DNA of 64,000 nucleotides from Seohaeicola saemankumensis (lineage in GTDB: Bacteria; Pseudomonadota; Alphaproteobacteria; Rhodobacterales; Rhodobacteraceae): the NCBI RefSeq assembly GCF_021021435.1, contig NZ_JAINWI010000014.1:186001-250000 (forward strand), written 5' to 3'. The position numbers and the translations under genes are program-made. The notes beneath the pieces were generated by a model. The model was not told where the DNA came from and ran no database searches. It worked only from the letters and a program-made list of their open reading frames with translations. Positions 3,282 to 55,013 of the stretch are shown here, piece after piece. How positions within the stretch are numbered: the first letter of the stretch is position 1; each line of letters begins with the position of its first letter.

Positions 3282-5102
3282 ATGGACCTGCGAAATATCG
3301 CCATTATCGCGCATGTGGACCACGGCAAAACGACGCTTGTGGACGAACTGCTCAAACAATCCGGTACTTACCGGGAGAACCAGGCGACAACCGAACGCGC
3401 CATGGACAGCAACGATCTGGAACGTGAACGCGGCATTACCATTCTGGCCAAGAATACGTCGGTCGAATGGAAAGGCACACGGATCAATATCGTCGACACC
3501 CCCGGTCACGCCGATTTCGGTGGCGAGGTCGAGCGTATCCTGTCGATGGTCGATGGTGTCTGCCTGCTGGTCGATGCAGCCGAAGGGCCGATGCCGCAGA
3601 CAAAATTCGTGACGGCCAAGGCGCTGGCACTGGGTCTGCGCCCCATCGTGATCCTGAACAAGGTCGACAAGCCCGACGCCGAACCCGACCGCGCGCTGGA
3701 TGAATGTTTCGACCTTTTCGCCAATCTTGGTGCCAATGACGACCAACTGGATTTCCCGCATCTTTACGCCTCGGGCCGCTCGGGTTGGGCTGACGCGACA
3801 CTTGACGGTCCCCGCAAGGATCTGTCGGCGCTGTTCAAACTGGTTGTGAACCACGTCCCGGCCCCCAAGCAGCAGAAACACACGGACGAACCGTTCCGCA
3901 TGCTGGCCACCACGCTTGGCTCTGACCCGTTTGTCGGTCGCATCCTGACAGGTCGCGTCGAATCAGGCCGACTCAAGGTTGGGGCGACGGTGCAGGCGCT
4001 CTCACGCATCGGTCAGAAAATCGAACAGTTCCGCGTCACCCGCGTGCAGGCCTTCCGCGGCCTCGGCCAGCAGGATATCGACGAGGCCGTGGCTGGCGAC
4101 ATCGTGAGCCTTGCAGGTATGACCAAAGCGACCGTGGCCGATACAATCTGCGCTCTGGCGGTGGATGTGCCCCTGCCCGCCCAGCCGATTGATCCGCCCA
4201 CCATCACCGTGACCTTCGGCATCAATGACAGCCCGCTGGCGGGTCGTGACGGCAAAAAGGTTCAGTCCCGCGTCATCCGCGAGCGTCTGATGAAAGAAGC
4301 CGAATCGAACGTGGCCATCAAGATCACCGACACACCGGGCGGCGAAGCTTTCGAGGTTGCCGGCCGCGGCGAACTCCAGATGGGCGTTCTGATCGAGAAC
4401 ATGCGCCGCGAAGGTTTCGAGTTGAGTATTTCGCGCCCGCAGGTTCTGTTCAAGGATGGTCCGAACGGCGAAAGGCTGGAACCGGTTGAAGAAGTGACCA
4501 TCGACGTGGATGACGAATATTCCGGCGCCGTGATCGAGAAAATCACCGGCGTGCGCAAAGGCGAACTGGTCGAAATGAAACCGGCAGGTGTGGGCAAGAC
4601 GCGTATCATCGCGCTGGTCCCCTCGCGCGGTTTGATCGGCTATCATGGTGAATTCCTGACCGACACGCGCGGCACAGGCGTTCTGAACCGCGTGTTCCAT
4701 GACTGGGCACCCCATAAGGGCGCGATCCCCGGTCGTCGTGCCGGTGTTCTGATCTCGATGGAGAACGGCACCTCGGTCGCTTACGCGCTGTGGAACCTTG
4801 AAGAGCGTGGTCGCATGTTCATCGGCGCACAGGCCGACGTCTATACCGGCATGATCATTGGCGAGCATAGCCGCGACAACGATCTGGAAGTAAACCCGCT
4901 GAAAGGCAAGAAGCTGACCAACGTGCGCGCCTCTGGCACAGACGAAGCCGTCCGCCTGACCACGCCGATCACGATGACGCTGGAACAGGCCATCGCCTAT
5001 ATCGACGACGACGAACTTGTCGAGGTCACGCCGAACTCGATCCGTCTGCGTAAACGCTATCTGGACCCGCATGAGCGCAAGCGCATGTCGCGGTCTTCCT
5101 GA
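3282..5102 (+). CDS. typA: Translational GTPase TypA/BipA
   Basis: A 606-residue ribosome-binding GTPase of normal length. The G1 motif [10 protein letters not shown] is at residues 10-19, the RGITI switch-I segment and [14 protein letters not shown] (G3) follow, and NKVD is G4. EF-G-like domains II, III and V come next, then the TypA-specific C-terminal domain with [19 protein letters not shown]. It is needed for ribosome assembly and growth under stress such as cold. ATG 3282 gives the canonical N terminus and follows AAAGGACAG; the longer in-frame ORF lacks homology. Confidence 0.96.
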
Positions 5103-16297: not shown

Positions 16298-16339
16298 AGT
16301 CGTCTCCTTGCCGTCACACCCGACGGCGGATGGGTTACA

Positions 16340-16545
16340 TTTGGCAAGGCCGGTCTCCTGGCTTGCGGGTCGACGCGACCATCCACCTTCCCGGCCCGGT
16401 GAGAGACCAGTGGCATTTCGGATGGCCGCTCTCCGCTGACAGTCGCGGGGGCGGCTGGGGTGGGGGCGCCGCGATTTGGTCCGCCCTTCCCCATTCCCGT
16501 TTCAGCCCCTCGCCTTTCCGGTTCGGAGCACCTTTGCATCTATTC
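16340..16545 (-). promoter_or_regulatory. Cobalamin riboswitch upstream of the CbiM-like gene
   Basis: Reading the minus strand, the order is that of the B12 aptamer. A G+C-rich 5' segment is followed by the GCCACTGG core, then GGGAAGG, and finally the B12 box AGCCAGGAGACCGGCC at 16349-16364. The 3' edge lies about 45 bases from the permease start. Binding of adenosylcobalamin should lower expression of the cobalt permease. Boundaries are approximate to about 15 bases. Confidence 0.9.
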
Positions 16546-16613
16546 TTGTGCGCCTAACTGATCCAGCGGTCAAGCCTGCTTGCGACACATCGACGCCGGA
16601 AAATACCCTGCGG

Positions 16614-29635: not shown

Positions 29636-29737
29636 CAATTCACCTCGTTGCGGCGGCAGAGGCATAGGCCGACGGGTCAGGCGCAAGAACGCCATTATCC
29701 GAAGGTCACGGAACACCCCGTCCGCGCGTTTCAGTCA

Positions 29738-29945
29738 TCTGCGCTGGCAGGTCTCCCGGCTTGCGGATATCGGGACATCCTTGCGGATCATCCCGGCGGT
29801 GCGCCCCCCTTCCCGAACCTTGCGGCCAGTGGCATGGGCAGACCTTTCCGGTCACGGTCGCGGGGGCGGCTGCGCTTCGGTTCCTTGCCCCTGAGGGTCG
29901 CAAAACCTGTCGCATTCCCTTTTGGCCTGCCATAAGACAGGCACC
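29738..29945 (-). promoter_or_regulatory. Cobalamin riboswitch heading the long cob operon
   Basis: The minus strand shows, in order, a GCCACTGG core, GGGAAGG, and the B12 box AGCCGGGAGACCTGCC ending near 29745, 110 bases before the DUF1636 start. It should repress the whole DUF1636-cobW-cobN...cobA run when adenosylcobalamin is abundant. Limits are approximate. Confidence 0.9.
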
Positions 29946-29965
29946 AGCGCTCAATCCCCCCTCAT

Positions 29966-51855: not shown

Positions 51856-51929
51856 GCGGGTGTAGCTCAATGGTAGAGCAGCAGCTTCCCAAGCTGAATA
51901 CGAGGGTTCGATTCCCTTCACCCGCTCCA
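51856..51929 (+). tRNA. tRNA-Gly (anticodon CCC)
   Basis: A 74-nt cloverleaf: acceptor GCGGGTG pairs with CACCCGC, D arm GCTC/GAGC, anticodon loop TTCCCAA giving CCC, T loop TTCGATT, and an encoded 3' CCA. It is the last clear feature of the host chromosome. Everything to its right has different composition and phage-type genes, and tRNA 3' ends are common integration sites. Confidence 0.92.
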
Positions 51930-52083
51930 ATACTTAGCAGATTCCCCTCACATTTTTTGGCACGGATTTGGACCGGATTTTCGGGGTCACTTCGAAAGAG
52001 CTTGCTTAAGCTGCTGGCGAACGGGCAAAGAAAGGCACCCTCCGGGGGGTGGTCGTTCTTACCTACTGCGTTGGAGAAATTTC

Positions 52084-52392: not shown

Positions 52393-52417
52393 CATATGAT
52401 GGAAACTTCCACCCACT

Positions 52418-52705
52418 CTATTGATTGCTGTTTCGCACCTTACAGCTCCACCACACAAAAGCAGTGTAGTTTCTAATGGTTGGGTCCCCTTTTTTTCGCA
52501 GCAGCGCGTGTAGATCCATAGCTGTCCACTTCCCGGTGTTGGCAGTGACAGCAAGGGCGCGAGCTAGTTGGCGATCTTCTCCGGGCCTTAAGATGCACTG
52601 AGCAACAATCTGCTCGATTAGGTCTTCTCGCTGGGTGCGAGGGGTAGCTTGAAAAGCATCTGAGGCGGGCTGGAGGTCAATGTGGTTGAATGAGATATTT
52701 TTCAT
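52418..52705 (-). CDS. Hypothetical small protein
   Basis: A 95-residue mostly helical protein, with PRTQREDLIEQIVAQCILRPGEDRQLARALAV and DLHALLRKKGDPTIRNYTAFVWW. It has no Shine-Dalgarno sequence before ATG 52705. Convergent with the gene at 52084. I cannot assign a function; the aromatic C terminus (FVWWSCKVRN) is distinctive enough for a profile search. Confidence 0.5.
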   Translation of the reverse strand: MKNISFNHIDLQPASDAFQATPRTQREDLIEQIVAQCILRPGEDRQLARALAVTANTGKWTAMDLHALLRKKGDPTIRNYTAFVWWSCKVRNSNQ

Positions 52706-53126
52706 GTGCGTTGTTTAATTTAATACACCTTCCCCCTCTCGAAACAAAGCTCTACCAGGGTTCGTCTATGTTCATCACCAGAGTGGAGCTCAGAGTGTAA
52801 GTAGTAGTACAAGAGCCACCTCGCCTACCTTTTCCGTTCTCAATGAAGCCTAAGATTAATTAAATCGACGGCGACACGTTTTATGCGGTCTCAACTTACA
52901 AACATCTATCCACTCATCAGCTCCATATCGAGAGACGCTATTCCTAGCGCCCAGGGATTTGGAGCCGATGCGAGTTGATGTGCCGGTGTGTGGGTCACTG
53001 CAGAGATTGCTACACTCCTAGCCTTTTTGGATTACTCGGTCCGTAAGGAGCGACATACCCAGTGAGGTTAACTGGGTGCAGATTTTACAGTTATTCCCAC
53101 ACATCAACACACCAACTTTGTTGCTT

Positions 53127-53346
53127 TGATGATTGGCTCGCTGGGAAGTGCGAGGTAGCAGGCACCCTCACCCCTCGCATCAAGTCACATATTGTAAGGT
53201 ATTCCGCTTATTTCCTTACCGGCTTCCTGAGGTAGTTTCAGACTGACAACACAGAGGCCATCTTGCGTCGTTCTAAACCTGTCATGTCGGCGAGCTGTAC
53301 ACACTCGATATCCGACTGCATAACTTCCCAGTGAACCAACCATCTA
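53127..53346. repeat. Inverted-repeat pair A (outer stem, ~22 bp)
   Basis: Copy 1 (about 53128-53149) and the reverse complement of copy 2 (53323-53344) agree at 19 of 22 positions. Both arms carry CTGGGAAGT at the inner end. The three differences become two G-U pairs and one mismatch in the minus-strand RNA, but one G-U and two mismatches in the plus-strand RNA. The enclosed 173 nt contain three further hairpins. Confidence 0.7.
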
Positions 53347-53397
53347 TATTTTTCGTCCAGGCGCAAGAGCCCGCGACGTGGTGATGTGAATGTACTG

Positions 53398-53517
53398 TGA
53401 TGATTGGCTCGTGGGGAAGCTAGTCAGATATAGGCAGTGTCGTTTATAGCTACGAATGCCGCACCTTTCACTGGTCTAACACTAGACAGTAGTGCTCCCC
53501 CATGAACCAACCATCAA
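53398..53517. repeat. Inverted-repeat pair B (outer stem, ~22 bp)
   Basis: Copy 3 (about 53399-53420) and the reverse complement of copy 4 (53494-53515) agree at 18 of 22 positions. Relative to pair A, positions 14-15 are TG instead of CT and position 22 is C instead of T on both arms, so pairing is kept. Left and right copies differ from each other in the same way as in pair A at positions 5, 10 and 13. Confidence 0.7.
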
Positions 53518-53567
53518 ATACGCAAAAAGCCCAAGGCGGTTGAGGCCATGAGCTTTGTACGGTTGTG

Positions 53568-53730
53568 TGCAACCACTAACAGGGAAATAGTAACATGGAT
53601 TGCTCCAGTTACGAACTCACCGCATGTGACTAGTGGTTGCATATCAAAATATTACACTACCTTTGATTTTTGTGCAAAATGCTTGTGGACAACAGGAGCC
53701 ACACGTACTTTGCAACCACTTTCGGAGGTG
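53568..53730 (+). promoter_or_regulatory. Leader of the AbiTii gene with three copies of one 10-11-nt element
   Basis: TGCAACCACTA (53568-53578), its exact inverse TAGTGGTTGCA (53631-53641) and TGCAACCACT (53711-53720). The middle copy can pair with either neighbour: an 11-bp stem upstream, or a 10-bp stem ending three bases before the GGAGGTG ribosome-binding site (53724-53730). As RNA this is a two-state switch; as DNA it is three operator sites. Confidence 0.5.
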
Positions 53731-53733
53731 TAG

Positions 53734-54663
53734 ATGGCTCTGTTGCATGAAATCCAAGCGTCGCTCCTCGACGACAAAGTTCCGCTCGGCCCTATTCTTC
53801 TGAAGATCAAGTTCCTTGCTGCCAAGCTAGGTAACCACACCCTTGCGGATTGGGTGAAACACGAAACTGAAGGATACCCGGACGAGGTGCCGGTGCCTGA
53901 ATATCGCGTGGCGGGCATCACATATCAGGGCAACTTCACTAACGGCATAATGGTTACGAATGGGTCTCCCGTTCCTGGTGTGATTGTCAAGCAGCACGCC
54001 GGGGAGCAGTGGCTGAGGTACAGTCTTCGCGAGCCGATTGCGGTCATTGACAGCTACGTTGAAAAGAACGCAGAAGGGGACGGGAGCGGTCGCTATTCCA
54101 TTGGGACCGGTAATCTTATGGCTCTGATTGGTGACAAGATTTTCAAAGGTTTTGGCTGCACGCACTTGGAGGGATTCTTCAGCGCAGGAGCGTTTGTACA
54201 AGTTGTAGCAGTTGTCCGAGCAAGGCTCTTGGACCTAGTACTAGAGCTTGAATCCAAGGTACCAGAGGCCGCCGCTGTTGAAGTAGGAACCACTGTAGTT
54301 GGGACAGTTAACCAAGCCGCTGTTACGAACATCACTAACACCACCATCTACGGTAACGTGAGTAATGTCTCGAACACTGGTGCGGGTGCTCAAATTGCAT
54401 TGAAAGTTCTTCAGGGTGACAGTGAAAGCTTGAAGCAAGGACTGATAGCTGCCGGTCTGACGACTAAAGAAGCCCAAGAACTTACTGCACTTGCAGAAGC
54501 GGAAAAGCCTGCTGGTGATATGGAACCGTTCGGAAAACGAGCAAAAGCATGGATAGTCAAACGTCTCGAAGCTGGCGCTGATGGTGTGATGAAAATTGGG
54601 GGGAAAGTTGCAGAGGACGAGATCGCAGAGCTCTTCCAAAAGTTTTATGACTGGCTTGGATGA
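53734..54663 (+). CDS. AbiTii-domain abortive-infection-type protein
   Basis: A 309-residue soluble protein. Residues about 1-185 match the AbiTii domain: MALLHEIQASLLDDKVPLGP, then LAAKLGNHTLADWVKHETEGYP and VPEYRVAGI. Residues 195-225 are a Thr/Asn-rich beta segment (VTNITNTTIYGNVSNVSN), and a helical C terminus (240-309) follows. AbiT of Lactococcus is a two-gene phage-exclusion system; the mechanism of AbiTii is not settled. It is the only plus-strand gene within the minus-strand phage block after 52.4 kb, has its own strong ribosome-binding site and long leader, and overlaps the RusA-like gene tail to tail by 19 bp. This fits a phage-borne accessory (moron) defence gene. Confidence 0.75.
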   Translation: MALLHEIQASLLDDKVPLGPILLKIKFLAAKLGNHTLADWVKHETEGYPDEVPVPEYRVAGITYQGNFTNGIMVTNGSPVPGVIVKQHAGEQWLRYSLREPIAVIDSYVEKNAEGDGSGRYSIGTGNLMALIGDKIFKGFGCTHLEGFFSAGAFVQVVAVVRARLLDLVLELESKVPEAAAVEVGTTVVGTVNQAAVTNITNTTIYGNVSNVSNTGAGAQIALKVLQGDSESLKQGLIAAGLTTKEAQELTALAEAEKPAGDMEPFGKRAKAWIVKRLEAGADGVMKIGGKVAEDEIAELFQKFYDWLG

Positions 54664-55013
54664 AGTGTAACCTCAACCTCGTTCGCACCAGCCTTGTCTA
54701 TCTTCTCCCCAGACACGCTATAGCTGCCTACGTACTTTGGCTCATCCCCTGGCAAAACGCCACAGTGAACAAGGCCGTCCTCCACCATCTTGAGCATGTA
54801 GGCGTGGTTACTCATATCGAGCCGAGAACCGGCCAATCTAAAGTGATAGTGGATGTGAACGGGGTACGGGCCTGGAAACGGCTCAGGACGCGGTTTTGCG
54901 GCTCTAACGGCCATCTGGTAGTTGGCCTTATGGGCGGACCGCTGCGAAAAATGCACCCCGGCATAGATCTTGTTCAGGGATACCTTCTCAGGGATCGGGA
55001 CAGTGTACTTCAC
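54645..55013 (-). CDS. RusA-like Holliday-junction resolvase
   Basis: A 122-residue protein starting at GTG 55013 directly behind a stop in the same frame. Motifs: VSLNKIYAGVHFSQRSAHK N terminus, YHFRLAGSRLDMSNHAYMLKMVEDGLV with the acidic Asp-x-x-Asn core of RusA, and VLPGDEPKYV. The family resolves branched DNA, typical of phage recombination modules that also carry ERF and SSB, both present here. The last acidic pair is DE rather than DD. Confidence 0.7.
   Translation of the reverse strand: MKYTVPIPEKVSLNKIYAGVHFSQRSAHKANYQMAVRAAKPRPEPFPGPYPVHIHYHFRLAGSRLDMSNHAYMLKMVEDGLVHCGVLPGDEPKYVGSYSVSGEKIDKAGANEVEVTLHPSQS

Follow-up and report, generated by a model that had tools for sequence, protein, structure and literature searches.

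In the stretch of DNA analyzed here (64,000 nucleotides in all; hereafter, the window), four copies of one 22-nt element stand as two inverted pairs within phage DNA and close to a tRNA gene, which raises the question of whether these repeats belong to a structured RNA and, if so, what such an RNA might do. The copies are found at positions 53128 to 53149 (plus strand), 53323 to 53344 (minus strand), 53399 to 53420 (plus strand), and 53494 to 53515 (minus strand). When the window was scanned with a degenerate 22-mer, allowing up to 3 mismatches, these 4 matches and no other place in the 64 kb were returned, compared to a mean of 0.03 matches in 100 shuffled sequences, none of which reached 4. 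The four copies are not the product of chance. Read from the minus strand, they provide the arms of two 22-bp stems, designated P3. The domain 1 stem joins a 5' arm at 53494 to 53515 with a 3' arm at 53399 to 53420 and encloses an interior of 73 nt (53421 to 53493), and the domain 2 stem joins the 22-nt matches at 53323 to 53344 (5' arm) and 53128 to 53149 (3' arm) and encloses 173 nt (53150 to 53322); the linker between the domains (53345 to 53398) is predicted to form a hairpin. The two interiors show no above-chance similarity to each other. A preliminary description of this DNA had reported the four copies at these places, and sequence comparison and the shuffles bore out its account of them: positions 14, 15, and 22 are the same within each pair and differ between pairs, with pairing kept, and positions 5, 10, and 13 distinguish the two arm types in each pair. 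A further difference between arms, absent from that account, lies at position 19 of the 53399/53494 pair. Of the two arrangements offered there, nested or consecutive stems, only the consecutive one is correct.

The setting of these stems is a prophage. A tRNA-Gly gene lies at 51856 to 51929, and the left attachment core of the prophage (51884 to 51931, plus strand), which is the 3' part of this gene, consists of 48 bases that are repeated on another contig (C15) beside an integrase gene (PF00589; E = 2.5e-14) belonging to the window's minus strand. In five of six genomes of the same genus, the match to the window ran through the neighboring gene to the 3' end of the tRNA and stopped there; the sixth had no match. 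These comparisons indicate that the tRNA-Gly gene is the integration site of the prophage, and it is for this reason, and not as a companion gene, that the tRNA adjoins the putative RNA. A different 22-base direct repeat was found in both attachment flanks, at 51956 to 51977 and beside the C15 copy, and is likely to be the arm site of the integrase. Since this arm-type repeat is another 22-mer, the P3 arms are not integrase sites. C15 is presumably the other end of the same prophage. The window's own contig ends 3862 bases beyond the window, within phage genes, and part of the prophage is missing from it. The sequences at the ends of contigs C6 (L033 3862) and C15 (L046 10998) resemble each other (GACCTGCCCCCCGAA and then variants), and a repeat inside the prophage may be what broke the assembly there. 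In another genome of the same genus (L047, G006:C16:235514-246726), the end of tRNA-Gly recurs in part about 10.6 kb past the tRNA, suggesting a further insertion at this site. The recognized prophage genes, namely, tail and connector genes and those for an M15 peptidase, ERF, SSB, and a RusA-like resolvase, are on the minus strand.

A pattern scan of IMG/VR revealed one contig, 3300035003_000006 (L048), in which the arms occupy the same place relative to the genes, as GATGATTGGTTCG (4327, plus strand) and GATGGTTGGTTCA (4484, minus strand). This contig is collinear with the window prophage (SSB, 65% identity; RusA, 54%; ERF, 46%; other shared genes, about 29 to 66%) and has an integrase gene at its far end. 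The rusA-like gene (54645 to 55013, minus strand in the window) is the conserved neighbor on one side. Between it and the RNA, the window has a single gene, a divergent, plus-strand gene of the AbiTii abortive-infection type (53734 to 54663; PF18864, E = 3.1e-36; PADLOC AbiTii, E = 9.6e-35), and L048 has plus-strand genes identified by family match as those for a type II methyltransferase and a restriction enzyme. For the first ORF downstream of the RNA in the window, neither the L048 contig nor the phage records gave a match. Where the window has two P3 stems, L048 has one, with arms conserved at 4475 to 4496 and 4327 to 4348. As in the window, left and right arms are unlike at positions 5 and 13; positions 21 and 22 are unpaired in L048. 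Its interior was not similar beyond chance to either interior in the window. The P3 arms are nearly invariant between the two phages, their 13-nt outer parts included, and the left and right types stay distinct; because of this near invariance, P3 alone gives little covariation between phages. As a separate observation, the slot beside rusA held defense-type cargo, i.e., AbiTii in the window and the type II restriction-modification pair in L048 (L100 4748-6237); in a further locus (L034 7197-8285), the same slot held a DNA methylase gene (PF01555) preceded by a gene for a 308-aa protein with no Pfam match. Two HerA/TrwB-like ATPases, with weak TrwB matches, were encoded near the integrase of the related phage contig (L101 14276-17291), which seems unusual for a tailed phage.

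The comparison with L048 also changed the extent of the element. The preliminary description had given it as 53127 to 53517, which does hold the four copies; similarity on the minus strand, however, continues 5' of the P3 stems, to about 53641 to 53645, through two helices, P1 and P2, that the description lacked, so that the order along the RNA is P1, P2, and then the 22-bp P3. P1 (53568 to 53641) consists of an 11-bp stem (53641-53631 with 53578-53568) and an inner hairpin with a GCAA loop and has nearly the same fold in L048. All 11 pairs are formed in both phages, with five compensatory double changes and none broken, and a Watson-Crick helix of 11 bp with at least three double changes arose in none of 3,000 column shuffles. 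P2 (53522 to 53560) is a hairpin, nearly identical in L048, whose 3' side enters a U-run (53528-53524). Conservation between the two phages is confined to P1, P2, and the P3 arms and does not include the interiors and flanks.

Over the 41 given pairs, in a structure that had been derived from one of the two phages, 96.3% of 82 cells were paired, compared to 37.5 to 46.3% when the partners were slid, and seven double changes were counted. In a letter-shuffle control, which is a weak one with two sequences, the seven double changes and the observed covariation score were reached in 7 of 500 shuffles and the observed paired percentage was reached in 4 of 500. Minimum-energy folds of P1-P2, computed separately for the window and for L048, nearly coincided and had GCAA and UUCG tetraloops. 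On the minus strand only, the inner loops read as GCAA and C(UUCG)G, both of them classic tetraloops of RNA. The RNAalifold consensus energy was -48.4 kcal/mol on the minus strand (z = -11.1) versus -29.7 kcal/mol on the plus strand (z = -6.9). Single-sequence folding gave a z score of -7.6 for the minus strand of 53100 to 53645 (546 nt) and, for 53100 to 53540, z scores of -6.4 (minus) and -3.3 (plus); 53516 to 53733, which holds P1 and P2, folded well on both strands (z = -5.7 and -4.8). The plus strand likewise folded better than expected by chance. The P3 interiors alone on the minus strand were no better than shuffles in domain 2 (z = -0.2) and slightly better in domain 1 (z = -1.7). In the minus-strand RNA, P3 positions 5, 10, and 19 form G-U pairs and position 13 is an A.C mismatch, which is present in all three pairs (two in the window and one in L048), and on the plus strand these are exchanged. 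The consensus folding, the polarity of the G-U pairs in P3, and the tetraloops of the inner loops lead us to favor the minus strand as the one that would encode the RNA. RNAalifold further matched the P3 5' arm to a conserved AACC that lies between P1 and P2, and competition between P3 and an extended P2 is therefore conceivable; the match is short and serves as a lead only. Together, these results support well the conclusion that the region specifies a structured RNA. The earlier suggestion of a duplicated, selected RNA structure was thus strengthened, with a collinear phage that keeps the arms and compensatory changes in the adjoining helix.

Further members of this group were sought in several ways. 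Direct DNA comparison gave no homologue in phage records, plasmid records, or 100 relatives. One weak match of about 40 bases (MT835967.1, L111), aligned to the P2-P3 junction and scoring 17.8 bits with a model of the P1-P2 RNA (R1), was rejected as chance because it lies in an open coding frame and its best arm partner within 400 bases downstream (18 of 22) is unlike the P3 3' arm; a second (L112) falls in a gene annotated as capsid and was not matched by R1. The exact 21-nt arm pattern was found at 28 genome-contig loci, close to the roughly 30 that we estimate for chance, and at one viral locus; in 28 of these 29 loci, the best second arm within 400 bases paired at 15 to 18 of 22 positions, counting G-U. 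The remaining locus (L004), at 19 of 22, is coding sequence with many G-U pairs and was rejected. The 5'-arm pattern had five viral matches, one of them real (L048), with another (L049) reaching 18 of 22; among the 27 matches to the 3'-arm pattern and the 20 to the junction pattern, only L048 held, and a two-arm pattern at the domain 1 spacing had no match. Overlapping sets of 292 order, 385 class, and 394 family genomes were searched with R1, which recovered the genome of origin and two other matches (L109 and L110), terminator-like hairpins that we attribute to chance, the former directly after a gene. A strict pattern was present in 1 of the 394 family genomes, again the genome of origin. 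R1 was found in none of the five loci scored around RusA relatives in the last viral scan, the sixth (L104) being the L048 contig itself; one locus (L103) ends just past rusA and is uninformative. The closest RusA relative found (L034, 66 to 67%) carries different genes at the corresponding place and lacks the RNA. RusA had three weak relatives in the phage records, and AbiTii had none in the viral contigs. A literature search, judged from the search listings alone, returned nothing describing a P1-P2-P3 RNA. Since no further members were found, two sequences and the internal duplication are the whole basis of the covariation.

P2 resembles an intrinsic terminator, and a possible promoter, a weak match read by eye (TTGCAC, 17 nt, TAATAT; 53649 to 53677, minus strand), precedes P1, with TAGTAT at a similar distance before P1 in L048. 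A consensus promoter scan did not list the sequence before P1, and conservation between the window and L048 in the DNA upstream of P1 was not above chance. DnaA-box-like sequences were noted just upstream of P1 in the window (53671 to 53692, minus strand; TTTTGCACA and TTGTCCACA) and in L048 (4676, minus strand; TTATCCACA), the first of those in the window overlapping the possible promoter.

The reading that we prefer, tentatively and with somewhat less than even confidence, is that of a phage leader RNA, gated by P2, whose P3 rods would precede the left-end genes and whose role would probably be to control phage genes nearby. Beyond the folding evidence, we infer the following course of events. 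Leftward (minus-strand) transcription would start just upstream of 53641, at P1; P2 would end part of the transcripts to give a small RNA of about 120 nt, and the rest would read through, so that a long leader containing the P3 rods would come before the left-end genes. Because int is on the same strand, a transcript of the circular phage would cross attP into int, and once the phage had circularized, the P3 rods would stand ahead of int. The rods might control processing, stability, or further elongation of the leader transcript, and the inner 9 bp, which differ between the domains and match within each, might make each arm choose its own partner and not that of the copy. The terminator-like nature of the two other R1 matches counts for P2 as a terminator; the failure of the terminator scan to list P2 and the lack of the RNA in L034, despite its having the closest RusA, count against a leader RNA. 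If this reading is correct, a related arrangement is IsrK of prophage Gifsy-1 in Salmonella, where a promoter yields a terminated short RNA with read-through into phage genes (excerpt of PMC4825925). P2 is terminator-like, though unlisted by the terminator scan, within a longer putative transcript; in contrast to IsrK, no antiterminator or anti-repressor gene was recognized beside the window RNA, and that excerpt describes no P3-like rods for IsrK. A bolder proposal, which seems to us improbable, is a new class of leader RNA in which the duplicated P3 rods, with their orthogonal inner halves, sense or enforce whether the phage is integrated or circular. If true, it would mean a terminator-gated transcript that places sequence-fixed 22-bp rods ahead of int only after excision. 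Long structured phage RNAs are few. For the present one, the defined gene position, testable terminator, natural duplication whose inner halves have changed in compensation, and diverged homologue make structure and role directly testable in a lysogen, and it would also exemplify an RNA domain that duplicates and then evolves private pairing.

The strongest competitor to a P2-gated leader, in our view an unlikely one that still deserves weight, is a free-standing large structural RNA like ROOL or GOLLD, stable, abundant, and perhaps oligomeric, in which P2 would be structural and not a terminator. ROOL, GOLLD, and OLE form homo-oligomeric RNA-only particles by cryo-EM, and the function of ROOL and GOLLD is still unknown (excerpt of PMC12286853). 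Those RNAs are large, noncoding, and heavily folded and occur in phages and prophages; the present RNA would exceed 500 nt, folds heavily, and lies in a prophage. Moreover, the P2 U-run is partly paired within the predicted helix, and the terminator scan passed over P2. The Rfam scan (cmscan), however, gave no match at gathering score in this region and none at E values up to 5 in 52400 to 53740, nor was there any match up to an E value of 1 in the homologue region (L100 1-7000), and conservation of only P1, P2, and the P3 arms, with neither interiors nor flanks, speaks against an RNA of this type. Kinship with ROOL or GOLLD had been raised in the preliminary description partly from the position next to a tRNA, and with no Rfam match in the window region or the homologue and with that adjacency explained by the attachment site, it is not supported.

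We regard as improbable a cis-acting antitermination RNA like put of phage HK022, in which two stem-loops at the start of the transcript make polymerase ignore terminators. According to an excerpt of PMC9378689, putL lies just downstream of PL, put spans about 70 nt with two stem-loops, and it acts on RNA polymerase to suppress terminators independently of protein. Here, too, two stem-loops directly follow a presumed start in a temperate phage, a likeness in the number and placement of the stem-loops that depends on a putative promoter. On the other hand, P1 and P2 together take about 120 nt versus the shorter put, the layout differs, P2 itself looks like a terminator, and nothing resembling the P3 rods is described for put in that excerpt.

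The repeats might instead act as DNA, as binding sites for a phage protein, recombinase, or replication initiator or as the ends of a miniature mobile element, which we consider quite improbable. The nearly invariant 13-nt outer arms with their distinct left and right types fit such a role, as do the DnaA-box-like sequences upstream in both phages. Against it, the repeat that is likely to be the arm-type site of the integrase has another sequence, and the adjoining P1 keeps its pairing through double changes. Transposon ends, already doubted in the preliminary description, remain a poor fit, given the orthologous position in two diverged phages and the compensatory inner positions; as for a miniature inverted-repeat element, the repeat was found in one place only in its own genome, with a single homologue at the orthologous position.

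An antisense immunity RNA of the P4/C4 type, in which one arm would base-pair in trans with a complementary part of a leader and thereby terminate transcription, is very improbable. The arm order in the window, A-B-A'-B', is in its favor, and P1, P7, N15, and P4 are known to have regulatory RNAs complementary to leaders (excerpt of PMC7567579). No third copy of the 13-nt arm core was found, however, in the sequenced part of the window prophage at up to 2 mismatches or in the L048 contig at up to 1 mismatch (at 2 mismatches, the latter had nine sites versus four to five in five shuffles), L048 has a single pair, and no Rfam family matched in this region. The transcript between the inverted repeats of PLE, a Vibrio cholerae satellite, is also a phage-related noncoding RNA with inverted repeats; it differs in that the PLE transcript is flanked by the repeats and matches leaders in antisense, as given in the same excerpt, whereas in the window the repeats are the stems themselves and the search for a close trans target found none. 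Other candidates that were considered and set aside are two-arm inversion sites, integron attC sites, and retron RNA. Elsewhere in the window, far from the prophage, two cobalamin riboswitches were found, at 16331 to 16550 and 29729 to 29963, both on the minus strand.
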